This document shows, piece after piece, positions 10,169 through 49,554 of a stretch of 54,555 nt of DNA. Position numbers and translations under genes: made by a program. Each line of letters begins with the position of its first letter. Within the stretch, counting starts at the first letter, position 1. Source of the DNA: Chitinophagaceae bacterium (GTDB lineage: Bacteria > Bacteroidota > Bacteroidia > Chitinophagales > Chitinophagaceae). The notes under the pieces were generated by a model. That model had not been told where the DNA came from. It worked only from the letters and a program-made list of their open reading frames with translations, and did not search any database. Where the stretch lies: assembly GCA_020848815.1 (NCBI GenBank), contig JADLHL010000008.1:1-54555 (forward strand). The letters are read 5' to 3'.

Positions 10169-10314
10169 TATGCAGGTATTGCAAAACAAACAAGCCGGAA
10201 CTGAAGTGCCAATTTTCTTAGTTGGATTCAAATAATCAATCATGGCACTCGAAAGCGTAACGATAGTTGGCGCAGAACAAGTATTTTGCTGACTCATCCT
10301 TTCAACTTGTAACA

Positions 10315-11901
10315 ATGCCGATACGAATGGTAGATGATCCGCAGGATCCCAACGAATTCAACGATAATAGTGGTGGACGCTCTGGTGGCCGTGGTGGCGG
10401 CGGTGGCGGTTTGCTCAACCTGTTGCCACTGTTGCTCATGCTATTTCGTAAGCCCGGTGGCCTGCTCATTTTAGTGCTGCTCGGTGGTGCATACTTCCTC
10501 ATGAACCAGCAGGGCTGTGGCAGTAGCTTTTTGCAACAGGCTGCCAGTGCCTTTAGTACAGGCGGCATGCTGAGCAAGCAGGAGTTTGCCAAAGCACCAG
10601 TGTACGAAGGCCTCAGCGATGATGATATACGCAACCCGCTGCCCGAGTATGTATCGCTGGCCAAGTTTGCACCTGAGCGGCAAAACCAGGGCAAGCAGGG
10701 CAGCTGTGTAGCATGGAGCAGTGCGTATGCGGCCCAAACCATTCTTATGAGTGCCAGCTCCGGCATCAATCCCAATCAGTTAGCTTTTAGCCCGTCGTAC
10801 ATGTACAACCAAATTGGCCTCGATGGTTGCCAGGGTTCGTACATCATCCGGGCCATGGAGTTGATGCAACGCAAGGGTGGAGTACCGTTTAATAATTTTC
10901 CGTACGATGAAACCGATTGCAGCCGCAATCCGCCCACGTCGCTGGATGCATTGGCCGCTGCCAATAAAATCCATGGCTTCAACCGCCTTACGGGTTCCGA
11001 TGCACCGGAAGGCATCAGCATTCGTGCCATAAAAGAGCACCTGGCTTCGGGTGCGCCGGTGGTGATAGGCATGATGGTGGGCGGGAGTTTTATGGAAGGC
11101 ATGATGGGCCAAAAAGTATGGATGCCCACACAAAGCGATTACAACCAAATGGGCTTTGGCGGCCATGCCATGAGTGTGATTGGCTATGATGATAAACTGG
11201 CTGGTGGTGCTTTTCAAATCATGAACAGCTGGGGGCCGGAGTGGGGCGAAAATGGCATTGGCTGGGTACGCTATGCCGACTTCAAAGAATTTGTGCGGGA
11301 AGCCTACGGCATTGATCCATTGCCACAGCAGGGCGCCGCTTTGCAGCAAGCATTCGATTGCGAAATAGGATTGGTACAGGTAGATGAGAAAGCGAAACCT
11401 GCTGGCTATATTCCTTTGCGCAATGCTGGTAGCAATGTGTTTGCCAGCAATACCATTGCCAAAGGCTCCCGGTTTAAAGTGGAAGTGAAAAACAGTACCG
11501 AATGTTATGTGTACGTGTTTGGTCAGGAAGTGGATGGCAGCAGTTATACGTTGTTTCCATACCCCACAAAAGAAGATGCCACAAAAACCGCTTACACCGC
11601 TTATTGCGGCATCACCGGTTACCGGTTGTTTCCAAAAAACAAGAGCATGATGCCCGATAGCATTGGCACCAAAGATTACATAGCTGTTGTAGTGAGCAAA
11701 GAAGAACTGCCTTGGTACGAATTGAATCAAAACATTTCTACACCCGGCAGCAACTATGCTAGCAATGTGAGTAACGCACTTCGGAGTTATGGCAGCGCTT
11801 CGTTGCAGGTAAGCAGCACCGGCAATGGTAACCTGCGGTTTACTGCAGCAGCAGGCGCCAAGGGCGTTTCGTATGCGATTGTGGAGATTAATAAAAAATA
11901 G
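10315..11901 (+). CDS. Membrane-anchored papain-like (C1) cysteine protease with DUF4384-like tail
   Basis: 528 aa from ATG 10315; an in-frame TTG at 10267 is not supported. A Gly/Arg-rich stretch (about 20-32) precedes two hydrophobic stretches (about 33-44 and 48-63). The C1 peptidase domain has the oxyanion Gln128, nucleophile Cys131 (QGSCVAW), His284 (GGHAMSVIGYDD) and Asn304 (IMNSWGPEWGENG). Behind it a beta-rich domain (about 360-450) with ECYVYVF...YTLFPYP resembles DUF4384, which is often found beside caspase-like or C1 peptidases. The Gly-rich plus hydrophobic N-terminus suggests anchoring in the inner membrane. The substrate is unknown. Confidence 0.85.
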   Translation: MPIRMVDDPQDPNEFNDNSGGRSGGRGGGGGGLLNLLPLLLMLFRKPGGLLILVLLGGAYFLMNQQGCGSSFLQQAASAFSTGGMLSKQEFAKAPVYEGLSDDDIRNPLPEYVSLAKFAPERQNQGKQGSCVAWSSAYAAQTILMSASSGINPNQLAFSPSYMYNQIGLDGCQGSYIIRAMELMQRKGGVPFNNFPYDETDCSRNPPTSLDALAAANKIHGFNRLTGSDAPEGISIRAIKEHLASGAPVVIGMMVGGSFMEGMMGQKVWMPTQSDYNQMGFGGHAMSVIGYDDKLAGGAFQIMNSWGPEWGENGIGWVRYADFKEFVREAYGIDPLPQQGAALQQAFDCEIGLVQVDEKAKPAGYIPLRNAGSNVFASNTIAKGSRFKVEVKNSTECYVYVFGQEVDGSSYTLFPYPTKEDATKTAYTAYCGITGYRLFPKNKSMMPDSIGTKDYIAVVVSKEELPWYELNQNISTPGSNYASNVSNALRSYGSASLQVSSTGNGNLRFTAAAGAKGVSYAIVEINKK

Positions 11902-12060: not shown

Positions 12061-12088
12061 CTTCTTCCCCCTCCGGGGGCTAGCGGGC
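12061..12088. repeat. Solo GC-rich repeat related to the IcmF insertion ends
   Basis: CTTCTTCCCCCTCCGGGGGC followed by TAGCGGGC. It shares the core CCCCCTCCGGGGGC and the CTTCTT lead-in with the inverted repeats at 48020-48050 and 48605-48630. It sits 18 nt upstream of the DUF4442 start codon. Confidence 0.75.
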
Positions 12089-12105: not shown

Positions 12106-12600
12106 ATGGCTTTTAAAGAATTTCAACAAACAGCCAATCATCGGTTCAAGTTTGGGTTGTTTATGTTGTATAAACTGCCGAGTGCTTTTTTTTGTGGGGT
12201 GCGGTTGCGCAGCATTTCGGAAAATGCAGCGGTGGTGAGTGTGCCATTCAAATGGTTATCGCAAAATCCGTTTCGCAGCATCTATTTTGCCTGCCAGGCC
12301 ATGGCGGCAGAAATGAGCACCGGCGTGTTGGCACTCGGCCACATACACGGCCGCAAGCCTGCGGTGAGTATGTTGGTTACATCCATCAAAGCAGAATTTG
12401 TGAAGAAGGCAACAGAGCGGATTTATTTTACTTGCGAAGATGGCGAGGCTATGCAGCAATGTATAGCATCAGCCATTGCTTCGGGTGAAGGAAAAACATT
12501 TACCGCTACCAGCACTGGCCGTACTAAAGCGGGTGAGGTAGTGAGTACGTTTACCGTAGAATGGAGTTTTAAAGCCAAAGCACATGCAGGAAACCAATAA
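12106..12600 (+). CDS. DUF4442 hotdog-fold protein
   Basis: 164 aa. The sequence matches the DUF4442 pattern: FKFGLFMLYKLPSAFFCGVRL at the start, then SVPFKWLSQNPFRSIYFACQAMAAEMSTG and a C-terminal VSTFTVEWSFK strand. The family belongs to the hotdog thioesterase superfamily, but a substrate has not been assigned and this is inferred only from fold family. The last 17 nt overlap the next gene, so the pair is translationally coupled. The GC-rich repeat directly upstream is unusual. Confidence 0.8.
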   Translation: MAFKEFQQTANHRFKFGLFMLYKLPSAFFCGVRLRSISENAAVVSVPFKWLSQNPFRSIYFACQAMAAEMSTGVLALGHIHGRKPAVSMLVTSIKAEFVKKATERIYFTCEDGEAMQQCIASAIASGEGKTFTATSTGRTKAGEVVSTFTVEWSFKAKAHAGNQ

Positions 12601-13414
12601 CACAGCTGCTTTGCGGGTATCGGAGTTGTGGATGTATCCGGTAAAATCCTTGGGTGGTATTGCGGTTCCGCAGGCCAAGGTATTGGCCAAAGGTTTCGAA
12701 TACGACAGGCGATGGATGTTGATTGATGAACGGAATCAGTTCATAACCCAGCGGGTGTTGCATCAATTGGCGTTGTTCAAATTGTCTTTTCACCAGCATG
12801 GATTTATGCTGCATCATGCAGGTCATGAAATGCTCTTGCCCTTGCACGAACATACAAGTGAACCAATCACGGCAACTATTTGGGATGATGCTGTGGAAGC
12901 GCTGGAAGTAAGTGCTGCTCACAGTGCCTGGTTTTCTGCACAAGTCGGGCTGTCGTGTAAGCTGGTTTATTTTCCTGAAGCACATACCAGAAAGGTGGAT
13001 GCTACGTATGCCTTGAATAGTGATGAAGTAAGCCTTGCAGATGGTTATCCGATTTTGTTGATTGGACAATCATCATTGGATGATCTCAACAGTCGCTTGC
13101 AAACCCATGTGCCGATGAATCGCTTTCGCCCCAATATTGTGATAGAAGGTGGCAAACCTTTTGATGAAGATTGCTGGCAGCGCTTTACCATTGGCGATGC
13201 AGCTTTTGCAGGTGTAAAGCCCTGTGCCCGTTGTGTACTCACCACGGTAAATCAGGAAACTGGCGAGCAAGGAGTGGAGCCGCTGGCCACACTCAGCAAG
13301 TACAGAAAAACGGGCAACAAAGTATTGTTTGGGCAAAATGTGTTGCCGCTTACTTCGGGCAATACCATTTGCATAGGCGATAGCGTGAAGGTCACTTCAC
13401 GAATAAGTGCATAA
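12584..13414 (+). CDS. MOSC domain protein (YcbX/mARC-like)
   Basis: 276 aa: an N-terminal MOSC beta-barrel domain (about 8-130, starting SELWMYPVKSLGG and with FEYDRRWMLID) and a MOSC domain (about 145-272). Cys214 in KPCARCVLTT is at the position that binds the molybdenum cofactor in mARC and YcbX proteins; Cys217 is next to it. FRPNIVIEGGKPFDED is also typical. YcbX-type proteins reduce N-hydroxylated compounds, but here the ferredoxin domain found in E. coli YcbX is absent, so an external electron donor would be needed. It overlaps the upstream gene by 17 nt and is followed by a bidirectional terminator. Confidence 0.88.
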   Translation: MQETNNTAALRVSELWMYPVKSLGGIAVPQAKVLAKGFEYDRRWMLIDERNQFITQRVLHQLALFKLSFHQHGFMLHHAGHEMLLPLHEHTSEPITATIWDDAVEALEVSAAHSAWFSAQVGLSCKLVYFPEAHTRKVDATYALNSDEVSLADGYPILLIGQSSLDDLNSRLQTHVPMNRFRPNIVIEGGKPFDEDCWQRFTIGDAAFAGVKPCARCVLTTVNQETGEQGVEPLATLSKYRKTGNKVLFGQNVLPLTSGNTICIGDSVKVTSRISA

Positions 13415-45243: not shown

Positions 45244-48200
45244 TTACATATTGCGGCGGTATTGTCCACCCACTTCATACAAGGCTTTGGTAATTTGCCC
45301 CAGTGAGCAATACTTCACGGTTTCCATCAGCGCTTCAAACAGGTTGCCATTGTTGATGGCTACTTGTTTCAACTGCTGCAATGCGGCTTTGCTCTTGTCT
45401 TCATTGCGCTGCCAAAACGCTTGCAGGTTGTTGATTTGCTGTTCCTTTTCTTCTGTAGTACTGCGAATCACTTCACCAGGTATTTGTGTGGGGCTTCCTT
45501 GCTTATTCAGAAAGGTATTTACACCTACAATGGGCAGCTCACCGGTATGTTTCAGCATTTCATAATGCAGGCTTTCTTCTTGTATTTTATTGCGCTGATA
45601 CATGCGTTCCATAGCACCCAATACACCGCCCCGTTCGCTTATGCGGTCAAACTCTTTGAGCACAGTGGCTTCTACCAAATCGGTCAACTCTTCAATGATG
45701 AATGAGCCCTGAATGAAGTTTTCTGTGTTCGCACTTCCCAACTCACGGTTGATGATGAGTTGTATGGCCATGGCCCGGCGTACACTCTCTTCTGTAGGTG
45801 TTGTAATGGCTTCATCATACGCATTGGTGTGCAGGCTGTTGCAGTTGTCGTAAATGGCATACAAAGCTTGCAGCGTGGTACGTATATCGTTGAAATCAAT
45901 TTCCTGTGCATGCAGGCTGCGGCCACTGGTTTGAATGTGGTATTTCAACTTTTGGCTGCGGTCGTTGCCCTTGTATTTATACTTCATGGCCTTGGCCCAA
46001 ATGCGGCGGGCCACACGGCCAATCACACTGTATTCGGGATCCATACCATTGCTAAAAAAGAAACTGAGGTTGGGTGCAAAATCATCGATGTGCATGCCGC
46101 GGCTCAGGTAGTATTCTACATAGGTAAAACCATTGGCCAGTGTAAATGCCAGCTGCGTAATGGGGTTGGCGCCTGCTTCGGCAATGTGGTAGCCACTGAT
46201 GCTCACACTGTAAAAATTCCGCACCTTGTTTTCAATAAAATATTCCTGCACATCGCCCATCAGTTTCAGGGCAAACTCAGTGCTGAAAATACAGGTGTTT
46301 TGTGCCTGGTCTTCTTTCAGAATATCTGCCTGCACGGTGCCACGTACTTGTTGCAAGGCGGTTTGTTTGCACTGTGCATATGCATCTGCCGGCAGCACTT
46401 CATCGCCACTCAGACCAAGCAGCTGCAATCCAAGTCCGTTATTGCCTTCTGGTAAATGACCTGCTGCATTAGCATGTATGTATTGCGGACGGGGCACATG
46501 GCGGTATTTCTCCGCAGCATAGGCTTGCACCTTTTCCCATTGGTTGTTTGCTGTAATCCATTTTTCGCATTGCTGATCAATGGCGGCATTCATAAAGAAA
46601 GCCAGCAACATAGGAGCAGGGCCATTTATGGTCATGCTTACTGAAGTACGTGGGTCGCACAAATCGAACCCGCTGTATAGTTTCTTCGCATCATCCACAG
46701 TTGCAATGCTTACGCCACTGTTGCCAATTTTGCCATAGATGTCGGGGCGGGCATCTGGGTCTTCGCCGTAGAGTGTTACACTGTCAAATGCCGTGCTCAA
46801 CCGCTTGGCTGGTTGGTCGTGGCTTACGTAGTGAAAGCGTTTGTTGGTGCGTTCGGGGCATCCTTCACCGGCAAACATGCGGGTAGGATCTTCACCGGCA
46901 CGTTTCAATTCAAACACACCGGCCGTGTACGGAAATTCGCCCGGTACGTTTTCCTGCAATTGCCACTGCAACACATCGCCCCAGTCTTTGTACTTGGGCA
47001 GCACTACTTTTTTAATGGAAGTACCACTTAATGAAGTAGTGGTCATGGCTTGTTTAATGACTTTATCCCGCACCTGATATTCAAAAAACTCATTGCTGTA
47101 TTTCTTCACCACATTGGGCCATTCGGTCAGCAGCTTGTGGCATTCTTTGCTCAGCTTTTCTTCGTTTTGCTGCTGCAGTTGTTTGAGTGCAGCATTGTCT
47201 GGTGCATCTTGCAGCACACCATGTAGCTGATACAGTTTGGTGGCAATGGCAGCTTGCTCTTGGGCCCATGCATCGTACTGGCGGTTGTTGTCGGCTATTT
47301 CGCTGAGATAACGTACTCTGGATGGGGGAATAACGGCTTGAGAAATCTTCGCTGTTTGGCCAAACTGAGCATCACCAAAGCTTACGCCCAGTTTGGTTTG
47401 CAGGCTGTGTAGCAGTTTGTCGAAGAGGTGGTTCATGCCTTCATCGTTGAACTTGCTGGCCATGGTACCTACAATGGGTAGCTCCTCATCTTTGGCCGTC
47501 CACAAACCGTGGTTGCGTTTGTACTGCTTGCGTACATCGGCCAGTGCATCCAAAGCACCGGCTTTGTCAAACTTGTTGATGGCAATGATGTCGGCATAGT
47601 CGAGCATATTGATTTTTTCCAACTGCGATGCGGCTCCATATTCCGGCGTCATTACGTACAAACTCAGGTTGCAGTAATCCAGAATCGATGCATCGCTTTG
47701 CCCCGTACCAGCACTTTCGAGAATGATGAAATCATACCCTGCATTTCTGCACACATCAATGGCATCCTGCACATGTTGGCTGAGGGCGGCATTGTCTTCA
47801 CGGGTAGCCAGGCTACGCATGTATGCCCGTGGGTGGGCAATGCTGTTCATGCGAATGCGGTCGCCCAACAAGGCACCACCGGTTTTCTTTTTAGAAGGAT
47901 CCACCGAAATAACCGCAATGGTTTGGCCACTGTTTTCGGTAAGGCTGAGATAGCGACGTACAATTTCATCAGTTACAGAAGACTTGCCTGCTCCGCCTAC
48001 GCCGGTGATGCCGAGGACAGCCCCCCGGCCCCCGGAGGGGGAGAAAGAAGCAGAGTCATTATCTTCCTCCACTTTTTTTGTGGGTTGACTTTCTAATGCG
48101 GCAACAATCTTGGCCAAAACCCTTTCAATGTCATTTTCGATTTCGTGGTTCTGAAAGCGAATAACATCGAAACCCAACGAGTACAACTGCTGAGTACGTG

Positions 48201-49068
48201 CTTCATCACTCAGTTGCATGTCGGGCAAACTGTGATACAAACCATCAACTTCAACCACCAACCCTTTGCTCAGGCAAGCGAAGTCAGCGATGGAACTACC
48301 AATAATATGTTGTCTGCGAAACTTATAGCCCGTCTTTTTGCTTTGTAATTTTTCCCAAAGCAATTGTTCTGCCGGCGTTGGATTGTAACGGTGCTCTTGT
48401 GCAAATGCTTTTAATCTACCATAAACCATTGGGTCGGCTTTGAAATGACCAACAGTTGAGGATGGCTGAGGAGCATTAACAGCATCATTTATTCCGAGTT
48501 CTGCTTTTGTAATAGCCCTTGCTACTTTTCTAATGTCCTTCGCCTCTCCTAATGGGGAAGCATCCATCCAACTTGTCTCTGCCGTCCAAAAATGACGGCT
48601 CCCATTTTCCCCCTCCGGGGGCCAGGGGGCATTTTCGGTTGGCCAGGGGGCTTTCGACTTCTCCAGCAAATCTTCAATCATGCCTTCGAGGCCCATTTCG
48701 CGGCCGTCATCGGGGCTGTAAATACGGGTAATACCGTAGGCATGAAGCTCCGCAATTTCTTCGGGCAAAATGGTGCCGCCACCGCCGCCAAAAATGCGGA
48801 TGTGGCCGCAGCCGCTCTGATCGAGCAGGTCTTTCATGTATTTGAAAAACTCCACATGACCACCCTGATAGCTGGTAATAGCAATGCCGTGGGCATCTTC
48901 TTCAATAGCGGCTTCTACAATTTCGTGCACACTTCGGTTGTGACCAAGGTGAATGATTTCTGCGCCTTTCGATTGCAAAATGCGGCGCATAATATTAATG
49001 GCTGCATCGTGTCCGTCGAACAAACTGGCAGCAGTAATTAATCTGATTTTTGGTTGAATATCAGTCAT
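45244..49068 (-). CDS. icmF: Fused acyl-CoA mutase IcmF with an inserted DUF559 domain
   Basis: 1274 aa from ATG 49068; a start at 49131 would lie in the loop of the ridA terminator. Domains: adenosylcobalamin-binding (about 8-135, His20 in [15 protein letters not shown]); an inserted segment (about 140-350) with a DUF559 nuclease domain at 214-325; a MeaB-like GTPase (about 351-640, P-loop [38 protein letters not shown]); and the mutase barrel (about 690-1274, [24 protein letters not shown]). IcmF interconverts isobutyryl- or isovaleryl-type and linear acyl-CoAs; exact substrate is unproven. Typical IcmF proteins are about 1080-1120 aa, so this is long by roughly the insert. Everything is in one frame, so the product may stay functional. 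Confidence 0.93.
48019..48651 (-). mobile_element. In-frame DUF559 nuclease element with GC-rich inverted ends
   Basis: 633 bp (211 codons) within icmF. The left end (48020-48046) is the reverse complement of the right end (48605-48630): a 22-nt core CCCCCTCCGGGGGCC-R-GGGGGC with one difference. At the right, GGCCAGGGGGC is repeated at 48620-48630 and 48641-48651. Next to the right end a hairpin GCCGTC / GACGGC lies at 48581-48599. Inside, the DUF559 domain reads [29 protein letters not shown] and VVEVDG, with Asp and Glu residues of the PD-(D/E)XK site kept. An internal ATG at 48429 could also start a free nuclease. Which of residues 174-200 are native linker is not clear, so the exact ends are uncertain. 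No target duplication is evident. Confidence 0.75.
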
Positions 49069-49094
49069 GGCAGGCAGCAACAATTTTAGGGGGG

Positions 49095-49102
49095 CAAAAA
49101 TA
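49095..49102 (-). promoter_or_regulatory. -7 element (TATTTTTG) for icmF inside the ridA terminator T-tract
   Basis: Minus-strand TATTTTTG matches TAnnTTTG and lies 26 nt before ATG 49068. The same bases are the T-rich run that follows the ridA terminator stem. Confidence 0.6.
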
Positions 49103-49104
49103 AA

Positions 49105-49147
49105 GCATCCAACCTGCCTTAGTTCACACATCGGGCGGGTTGGATGC
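49105..49147 (-). terminator. Terminator after ridA
   Basis: A 14-bp stem (GCATCCAACC-T-GCC paired with GGCGGGTTGGATGC, one T/C difference) with a 15-nt loop. On the minus strand TTTATTTTT follows. The orientation fits ridA. Confidence 0.75.
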
Positions 49148-49173
49148 CTTTAACAAAATAACTATGCAAAAAG

Positions 49174-49554
49174 TTACGCGGTTGCAATCATGCTTATCTC
49201 CACATGCACACTGCGGGGCAGGCCTTTTACAGCCACGGTTTCACGGGCAGGAAAAGCACTGCTGAAATATTGGCTGTATGCTTCATTTACCGTTGCAAAC
49301 AACGACATATCACTCAGAAAAATCGTTGTCTTCACCACATTGTCGAAGGTCATACCGGCTTCGGCCAGCACCGCTTTCAGGTTGGCCATTACCTGGTGCG
49401 TTTCTTCGGTTACATCGGTGTTTTTCAGTTCGCCAGTTGTGGGGTCAAAACAAACCTGACCACTCAGAAACAACAGGTTGCCGGCCATTACGGCTTGGCT
49501 GTAAGGACCAATGGGAGCAGGGGCTGCATTGGTTTCTATTACTTTTTTGTTCAT
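49174..49554 (-). CDS. ridA: RidA family reactive-intermediate deaminase
   Basis: 126 aa, full length. Conserved: APAPIGPYSQAVMAGNLLFLSGQ, the substrate-binding Arg in FPARETVAVKGLPRSVHVEIS and the terminal IEISMIATA-type strand. It hydrolyses enamine/imine intermediates from PLP enzymes and protects them from damage. It is divergent from a 3HCDH-like gene and has its own terminator. Confidence 0.95.
   Translation of the reverse strand: MNKKVIETNAAPAPIGPYSQAVMAGNLLFLSGQVCFDPTTGELKNTDVTEETHQVMANLKAVLAEAGMTFDNVVKTTIFLSDMSLFATVNEAYSQYFSSAFPARETVAVKGLPRSVHVEISMIATA

Follow-up and report, generated by a model that had tools for sequence, protein, structure and literature searches.

To our knowledge, selfish elements in coding genes have been thought to spare the host only by being carried in an intron or intein, or by being as short as the Rickettsia palindromic elements (RPEs). 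The homing endonuclease I-Bth0305I, of the EDxHD family, is itself named a mobile intron protein in the PDB. In fungal mitochondrial rps3, a homing endonuclease frame is fused to the host gene without an intron, and the end of the host gene is displaced and duplicated by the inserted frame.

RPEs are described as palindromic selfish DNA lying in frame inside conserved protein genes; in the portion of that report drawn on here, they measure 105 to 146 bp, have translated frames, and appear with no mention of a nuclease (PMC2229807). RAYT and TIRYT, the enzymes of REP/REPIN palindrome systems, are described as HUH tyrosine transposases, and the motif GGGGWSAS is reported for the ends of TIRYT transposases (PMC3733652). 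In Caulobacter, a DUF559 protein is reported to be needed for a methylase mutant to mount an SOS response (PMC12907096).

We analyzed a window of 54,555 nucleotides from the draft genome (329 contigs) of a Chitinophagaceae bacterium, referred to here as G000. A first-pass annotation had proposed that a selfish nuclease unit survives in frame, without splicing, inside the icmF gene or, alternatively, that a nuclease has been functionally fused to a metabolic enzyme in a new way. Our literature search found no description of such in-frame nuclease cassettes.

Results

A DUF559 nuclease domain lies in frame within IcmF

The frame list and a Pfam scan place icmF, which encodes a fused isobutyryl-CoA mutase/GTPase, at positions 45244..49131 of the minus strand, where the cassette-bearing frame stays open across 1295 aa. 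Pfam identified a B12-binding domain at aa 30-133 and a MeaB-type GTPase domain at aa 339-574 of the product, with DUF559 (PF04480) in between at aa 240-346 (98.8 bits against a cut-off of 20.6). This order bears out the original description of a DUF559 segment lying in frame between two domains of a B12-dependent mutase. The protein of the window was scanned against Pfam only; the NCBIfam IcmF equivalog match is that of a relative, L056.

The nuclease domain itself (48094..48414, minus strand) was assigned a Vsr/I-Bth0305I-like fold from Pfam, conserved residues, and sequence and fold matches. It matched I-Bth0305I both by sequence (3r3p_A, E 9.5e-6) and by fold (3r3p, probability 1.00, E 1.1e-4, TMq 0.70). 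An AlphaFold model of an IcmF fragment placed the domains in order, joined by low-confidence linkers; as the overall pLDDT was 63.9, we used only these two features of the model.

Insertions adjoining conserved motifs are typical of inteins and self-splicing introns. The suggested position of this insertion beside such motifs, and a fold related to that of a nuclease named as a mobile intron protein, would suit a segment that is removed by splicing. However, Pfam scans of the window protein and the scanned host open reading frames (ORFs) found no Hint or other splicing domain, and an Rfam search for group I or II intron folds across 47500-49200 of the window gave no match at E values up to 1. 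In addition, the frame is continuous, and icmF of G000 carries only ~136 extra codons compared with icmF of the same-genus genome G080, too few to accommodate both a Hint domain and a nuclease. The cassette is therefore neither in an intron or intein nor free-standing between genes, the two settings expected of a homing endonuclease, and we consider splicing very improbable.

The cassette is bounded by palindromic repeats and was exchanged as a block

Nucleotide identity to G080 defines an exchanged cassette at 48020..48654 (minus strand), with its edges falling within 48645-48654 on the 5' side of the gene and within 48020-48033 on the 3' side. In gene order, the cassette comprises a palindromic GC-rich repeat, host linker codons, the DUF559 nuclease, and an inverted repeat. 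The GC-rich inverted repeats noted earlier were recovered at 48020-48045 and 48605-48630, where 26 nt are 92% complementary. By repeat search and alignment, the gene-upstream repeat with its tail (48605..48651, minus strand) codes for ~13 residues, and the gene-downstream repeat (48020..48045, minus strand) codes for ~10 residues and abuts a 14-residue stretch of the GTPase domain. Both palindromes are free of stop codons in the frame used and code for peptides of Pro, Ser, Gly, and charged residues. The earlier claim that the repeats bound the segment held for the edges of the exchange, but the nuclease alone is not flanked: after the upstream repeat come ~40 codons (48470..48600, minus strand) homologous to the normal IcmF linker. 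A model in which the repeats flank only the nuclease was accordingly rejected for icmF.

Alignment to G000 showed that the nuclease is absent from icmF of both G080 and G210, members of the same genus, so that uninterrupted close relatives do exist. Upstream of the cassette, G000 and G080 are identical at 404 of 421 nt (96%). Across the linker that joins repeat to nuclease, identity falls to 74 of 125 nt (59%), against 105 of 125 nt shared there by G080 and G210, and it returns to 98% just past the second repeat. Because identity runs 96%, 59%, and 98%, the nucleotide alignments establish that linker and nuclease were exchanged as one block with edges at the repeats, with either G000 gaining the nuclease or G080 and G210 losing it.

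Another clear contrast within one genus was found in the leucyl-tRNA synthetase gene (LeuRS), which carries the cassette in G207 and lacks it in G066, with flanks identical at 1384 of 1466 and 1831 of 1974 positions. The G207 cassette runs from GACCTCACCC to GGGTGAGGTC and takes the place of a short host loop. Among the eight within-genus LeuRS pairs aligned, edges were placed in the DNA for this pair only, since the others mostly had 65-88% flank identity or were cut by a contig end. Given a 329-contig draft, we also considered a chimeric assembly or misjoined contig. Many genomes share this architecture, including the single-contig G141 (AroC and IcmF) and G210 (helicase), and in-frame host sequence lies on both sides of the cassette, leaving the chance of such an artifact negligible.

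The repeat core recurs throughout the genome

With up to two mismatches allowed, the repeat core CCCCCTCCGGGGGCC matched three times in the window, compared with 0.08 matches expected from shuffles; none of 100 shuffles reached three. The same search of the whole genome returned 13 matches, including the two of the cassette, and a reversed control pattern returned none, which shows that the core is not confined to icmF. One further copy in the window (12067..12081, plus strand; one mismatch), located by core search, stands where a stop-to-stop frame begins, between ORFs of at least 200 aa at 10267-11901 and 12584-13414. Five genes of the same genome, encoding LeuRS, MetRS, IspG, PcrA/UvrD, and trehalase, contain in-frame solo repeats and no nuclease. 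Across these five genes and LeuRS of other genomes, the repeats occur in frame as solo copies, an inverted pair, or tandem copies.

These repeats favor an alternative in which the mobile unit is a REP/REPIN-like palindrome family, moved at its hairpins by a transposase acting in trans or formerly in cis rather than by break-repair homing. DUF559 would then either be carried along as a passenger or stand in for the usual HUH transposase. Repeat tails fit GGGGWSAS on both flanks for 13 of 127 nucleases and 0 of 241 controls, a contrast that agrees with such an origin, although no more than those 13 nucleases carry the motif on both flanks. Against it, inverted flanks of the CTCTCC/GGAGAG or GGGGWSAS type are absent from all 10 loci encoding Y1 transposases (PF01797) in the genus, and the nucleases in LeuRS are confined to two codon points. 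We judge this alternative unlikely, and an HUH transposase as the mobilizer of the repeats is unsupported in the genus. Other GC-rich palindromes were seen near two Y1 loci, on one side at L353 and as a weak inverted match (score 11) at L354.

One nuclease lineage occupies many conserved genes

Among the DUF559 matches listed for the family (244 genomes), 88 of 150 sit in frames that are 250 aa or longer. A GIY-YIG control list of similar length held 11 such frames (counted by eye), 8 of them 602-629 aa long. Hosts of mid-gene copies include LeuRS, IcmF, MetH, AroC, MetRS, and CinA, and DUF559 domains also occur in proteins labeled by their sources as leucine--tRNA ligase, chorismate synthase, or RecG. 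Cultured carriers include Cellulophaga baltica DSM 24729, with LeuRS as the host, and Salegentibacter holothuriorum DSM 23405, with MetH, according to BLAST assignment of the host proteins. When 30 LeuRS ORFs were aligned, every nuclease followed reference aa 304 or aa 537-539. Different lineages therefore share an insertion point (two points, in LeuRS), and occupancy is patchy, as with the IcmF point that is filled in G000 and empty in G080 and G210. Ten ORFs encoding ArgB, GHMP kinase, NTP transferase, and PriA were not counted as insertions because the nuclease lies at their N terminus and clusters with free-standing copies. Viral contigs held 15 relatives at 25-41% identity.

The 200-nt flanks gave an inverted match scoring at least 14 for 65 of 125 DUF559 domains, compared with 0 of 381 control segments; the remaining 60 nucleases, including 7 of 8 MetH copies (scores 6-11), scored below 14. 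Palindromes and nuclease were associated across genomes (53/104 versus 21/140, p = 1.8e-9), an association that did not reach significance when the comparison was made inside genera (13 up, 6 down, 15 tied, p = 0.17). Codon conservation reached the 87th percentile in the 12 codons past the IcmF cassette. Directly after the LeuRS points it stood at the 42nd and 64th percentiles, with the best window within 10 codons at the 98th and 95th, so that conservation beside the insertion points is, from these alignments, suggestive only.

In a phylogenetic tree, 76 of 79 mid-gene copies formed one clade (support 98/97) that included none of the 38 free-standing copies sampled. One nuclease lineage inhabits many conserved genes across Bacteroidota. 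The proposed catalytic residues are conserved in 88 or all 89 of 89 sequences. Of 14 in-gene pairs, 9 had finite dS; their dN/dS was 0.05-0.24, and in 5 of these 9 the ratios are rough because dS exceeds 1.2.

The low dN/dS and the intact state of the proposed active site would also be expected if each host enzyme had recruited DUF559 for a useful role, such as that of a defense or DNA-repair switch fused to metabolism. The DUF559 copy of a ligase-associated helicase, kept in all three same-genus genomes (G000, G080, and G210), points the same way. However, the hosts are numerous and unrelated, members of one genus differ in whether they carry the domain, a single codon holds several nuclease subclades, and exchange took place at the repeats. 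We therefore find recruitment improbable, and with it the functional nuclease-enzyme fusion offered by the first-pass annotation.

Nuclease copies differ in how closely they follow their hosts

At LeuRS site 1, nuclease and host divergence are decoupled (r = 0.26 over 253 pairs). The same-genus pair L101/L106 has hosts that are 83% identical and nucleases that are 50% identical; for L059/L131, the values are 63% and 77%. Nuclease copies in MetRS (r 0.96) and CinA (r 0.95) track their hosts over six pairs each, and this correlation indicates vertical descent at both points. In the IcmF set, none of 45 pairs has a nuclease more alike than its host, so the case for horizontal spread in IcmF is drawn from the same-genus absence and from P0001. 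For P0001, identity is 93% in the nuclease, 89% in the GTPase domain, 82% in a further stretch of the C-terminal part, and 93% in the B12 domain. The GTPase and C-terminal values favor transfer; the B12 domain, as alike as the nuclease, does not.

Discussion

We consider it likely that a cassette consisting of a palindrome, a DUF559 nuclease, and an inverted palindrome spreads into one fixed point of icmF in the manner of a homing endonuclease, and we predict that it is translated as an unspliced extra domain. This is the selfish in-frame unit of the first-pass annotation. It gains support, at the sequence level, from the absence of the nuclease in G080 and G210, the repeat-edged exchange, the recurring core, the presence of the same clade in many housekeeping genes, and the lack of an Rfam intron or Pfam intein.

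From the observed sequence, placement, and exchange of the cassette, we infer its cutting, homing, and translation. The nuclease would cut an allele that lacks the cassette, next to a block of strongly conserved codons. Repair of the break would then copy the cassette from a donor allele, with the exchange stopping at the repeats. The palindrome-encoded peptides are predicted to serve as flexible linkers, and the host enzyme to fold around the nuclease. The cassette preserves the frame, and our searches detected no splicing device in it; together with the open frames and conserved host sequence, this suggests that the host gene is able to go on functioning. Conserved residues and dN/dS suggest that the embedded protein is retained as a nuclease. 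The host codons that set the upstream IcmF repeat apart from the nuclease are unpredicted by the simple form of this model.

The cassette resembles EDxHD/Vsr-like homing endonucleases in its catalytic domain, homologous to that of I-Bth0305I by sequence (3r3p_A) and fold, and in being inserted at fixed points, close to conserved codons, in genes that are themselves conserved. It differs from I-Bth0305I in lacking an intron or intein, in sharing the host frame, and in being bounded by palindromes. As in fungal mitochondrial rps3, the nuclease frame joins that of its host with no intron involved; unlike rps3, the cassette keeps both host halves in one frame, and does so in bacteria. Cassette and repeats are, like RPEs, in-frame palindromic insertions in conserved genes, but the icmF block is ~630 bp long, contains a conserved nuclease (PF04480), and has solo repeats elsewhere. 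REP/REPIN systems with RAYT or TIRYT likewise have short palindromes in inverted pairs flanking one enzyme gene and solo copies elsewhere. In that class the flanked enzyme is an HUH (Y1) transposase, whereas here it is a PF04480 protein, in a unit that lies inside genes and, in LeuRS, at two fixed points.

Homing endonucleases may have a third lifestyle, a broader proposal that we hold in even balance: a mobile class spread across a phylum, never spliced out, and translated as domains of essential enzymes, with the palindrome acting as both DNA end and flexible linker. If this is true, it would explain the DUF559 domains found in proteins named leucine--tRNA ligase, chorismate synthase, or RecG. 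It would also make testable how a mobile element keeps frame, how palindromes serve as DNA end and protein linker, and whether homing depends on splicing, and would supply nucleases with conserved codons as proposed targets. Tolerance as a domain would then be what lets the nuclease persist in tRNA synthetases, chorismate synthase, methionine synthase, and IcmF.

An in-frame DUF559 cassette in icmF

The icmF gene (45244–49131, minus strand) is open throughout as a frame of 1,295 aa, and its Pfam domains run in the order B12-binding, DUF559, MeaB GTPase and mutase. The match between the B12-binding and MeaB GTPase domains bears out the first-pass annotation, which had placed a DUF559 domain in frame inside this gene. 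GC-rich inverted repeats bound the cassette at 48020–48045 and 48605–48630. Their core is rare by chance, and the suggested search of the whole genome showed that it recurs: 13 copies were found at no more than two mismatches, including the two of the cassette, versus none for the reversed control. Host linker codons fill the stretch from upstream repeat to nuclease (48470–48600 in the window), an arrangement also read in the IcmF of genome G209 and in the database proteins P0001 and P0004. The idea that the segment is an intron or intein has no support at icmF from Pfam or Rfam.

The same genome holds copies of the icmF-type repeat without a nuclease (solo repeats), which in frame read SP(S/T/A)GG, then GA, and lie in the genes for LeuRS, MetRS (an inverted pair), IspG, PcrA/UvrD and trehalase. 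The MetRS pair (L022:2116–4272, contig C245) occupies the linker before the C-terminal tRNA-binding domain, with no nuclease.

Three DUF559 copies are present in this genome, and the two besides that in icmF also lie between inverted repeats, as the first-pass annotation had proposed to look for. One sits within the frame of a 1,076-aa ligase-associated DEXH helicase (L017:821–4060, contig C21), where the bounding inverted palindromes follow the pattern CCCCTCTCC-NNN-GGAGAGGGG and carry GGGGTGAGG-like tails that point inwards. Because this cassette is also present in the same-genus genomes G080 and G210, it is probably older than that of icmF. The other is free-standing (L018:2521–2961, 146 aa) between inverted CCTCCCTTTAGGGAGG palindromes; its neighbors look like trp-type genes (trpE/trpG-like) from reading of the ORFs rather than a family search. 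The three nucleases differ in repeat letters; a palindrome with a tail, inverted about the nuclease, is common to all.

DUF559 nucleases within unrelated host proteins

DUF559 was detected in 128 of 244 family genomes, weak matches included, and 88 of the 150 matches listed lie in frames of at least 250 aa. The census control was GIY-YIG, a similarly sized domain (98 genomes, list of similar length), which gave 11 such frames, counted by eye; the 8 of 602–629 aa are presumably UvrC, judging by size. We fetched 120 regions, long frames first and part of the short ones after. In all, 127 DUF559 domains were found in 124 ORFs (123 loci), 86 having 110 aa or more of additional protein. Host clusters, named from scans of one or a few representatives apiece, comprised LeuRS (30), IcmF (11), MetH C-part (8), AroC (7), ArgB (7), MetRS (4), CinA (4), helicase (3), adenine deaminase (3), MetH N-part (2) and seven singles. 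Ten ORFs (ArgB and three singles) were dropped as insertions because the nuclease is at the N-terminus only. The ArgB copies (L098, L102, L103, L105, L108, L117 and L132, from seven genomes) form one clade; in each, DUF559 immediately precedes ArgB in the same frame, which could represent either a fusion or an upstream frame that lacks a stop.

Across the phylum, DUF559 occurs in 170 of 296 genomes, and long frames turn up in several further families. Scanning GTDB with 21 domains as queries returned at least 582 relatives. Compared with the host set by BLAST, the best 80 of these included MetH (23), LeuRS-like (16) and MetRS (5) proteins; 32 had no match to the set, some being free-standing, and eight scanned from this unmatched group resemble IleRS, RecG, GH31, DegT aminotransferase and Ham1. 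Searches of 5.8 billion proteins yielded 106 and 116 DUF559 proteins, whose partner domains we take to indicate PurL, UvrA, RecJ, ArgRS, guanylate kinase, TsaB and MurE, among others, going by accession lists and some source names, with several names read from Pfam numbers. A function recruited by the host does not account for such a range of unrelated hosts.

Conservation and kinship of the nuclease

The first-pass annotation had described the acidic active-site residues as apparently intact. Among in-gene copies, the putative active-site residues, assigned by analogy, are retained: E20, D48, E59, H65 and D74 in 89 of 89 and D61 in 88 of 89. Their conservation about equals that in 38 free copies, in a comparison drawn from the top of the score list and so biased towards conserved copies. 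Nine in-gene pairs with finite dS (14 tried) gave dN/dS of 0.05–0.24, with dS above 1.2 in five. In the tree, 76 of 79 mid-gene copies form one supported clade (98/97) containing none of the 38 fetched free copies; the exceptions are those in HsdR, IspG and an Eco57I-like protein. The HsdR-type restriction subunit (L053:3670–7809, 1,380 aa) carries both DUF559 and GIY-YIG in frame.

By sequence profile and fold, the nuclease matches two structures: the Neisseria endonuclease-like protein 3hrl and, from the homing endonuclease I-Bth0305I, the catalytic domain 3r3p. Another DUF559 protein, VsrA of Caulobacter, is described in an excerpt of its source as required for a DNA-damage response of a methylase mutant (PMC12907096).

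Nuclease descent and block exchange

Nucleases in the 30 LeuRS ORFs all follow reference residue 304 or 537–539. Identity among nucleases at LeuRS site 1 is weakly correlated with that among their hosts (r = 0.26, 253 pairs) and exceeds it in four. Hosts of the same-genus loci L101 and L106 are 83% identical and their nucleases 50%; for L059 and L131, the values are 63% and 77%. By contrast, MetRS and CinA nucleases track host descent, and in IcmF the nuclease exceeds host identity in 0 of 45 pairs. The IcmF protein P0001, from a Chitinophagaceae MAG, matches the window at 93% in the nuclease, 93% in the B12 domain, 89% in the GTPase and 82% over a further 355-residue stretch. By these identities its nuclease would be nearer to that of the window than host divergence predicts, because G209 gives 60% for the nuclease against 85%, 81% and 68% for the corresponding host parts.

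The C-part of IcmF was matched in 235 of 244 family genomes (E ≤0.001, related mutases included). Alignment with uninterrupted relatives, as had been suggested, showed that IcmF of G080 and G210, 98% and 97% identical to that of the window over 924 aa, lacks the nuclease. Between the window's genome and G080, icmF agrees at 404 of 421 positions upstream, 74 of 125 in the linker from upstream repeat to nuclease, and 98% past the downstream repeat. Because identity drops in the linker, whereas the G080 and G210 linkers agree at 105 of 125, repeat, linker, nuclease and repeat must have been swapped as a single block with the repeats as its edges. By our reading of the alignment, G080 retains a solo downstream-type repeat; IcmF of G224 (L192) has repeat-like peptides on both sides and no nuclease. 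A second clean case of exchange comes from LeuRS within one genus, filled in G207 and empty in G066; the flanks agree at 94.4% and 92.8% of positions, and the edges are GACCTCACCC and GGGTGAGGTC.

Flanking repeats and the mode of spread

The best inverted match between 200-nt nuclease flanks averaged 14.5, compared with 8.0 in same-locus controls, and scores of at least 14 occurred at 65 of 125 nucleases versus 0 of 381 controls; the 60 lower-scoring nucleases include 7 of the 8 MetH copies. Typically, the 5' flank is GCCTCACCCC-TAA-CCCCTCTCC-NNN-GGAGAGGGG and the 3' flank its inverse, encoding peptides such as LTPSPSPKERG upstream and SPLERELEGEV downstream. One LeuRS (L055:3456–7148) has several tandem TPSPSPRERG-type peptides beside the nuclease at site 2. 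The palindrome CCTCTCCNNNGGAGAGG occurs in 53 of 104 genomes with strong DUF559 versus 21 of 140 others (244 genomes, P = 1.8e-9); within genera the association did not reach significance (13 up, 6 down, 15 tied).

Such repeats raise the main rival explanation, REP/REPIN-like transposition driven by the repeats, which we consider rather unlikely. On both sides of 13 of 127 nucleases, versus 0 of 241 controls, the tails fit GGGGWSAS, the motif that an excerpt of PMC3733652 gives for TIRYT transposase ends. However, inverted flanks of the nuclease-repeat type were found at none of ten Y1 transposase loci of the genus, although two of these have other GC-rich palindromes nearby. Those palindromes and the P0001 B12 value (93%) slightly raised our estimate for transposition and lowered that for homing.

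In an open collection of 5.39 million papers, surveyed by titles and abstract starts, we recognized no description of in-frame DUF559 elements in housekeeping genes. The nearest systems, from excerpts of their sources, are Rickettsia RPEs, which are likewise in frame (PMC2229807), and REPs, which also occur inside genes (PMC3733652).

Homing-like spread remains the most likely explanation, and a reasonably probable one, because the nuclease is kin to a homing endonuclease, insertions lie at set positions close to conserved codons, one codon is shared by several nuclease lineages, and exchange is bounded by the repeats. For such spread we infer cutting of the target, the direction of exchange and translation of host and nuclease as one chain; the cassette would then be a selfish element tolerated in the host frame without splicing.
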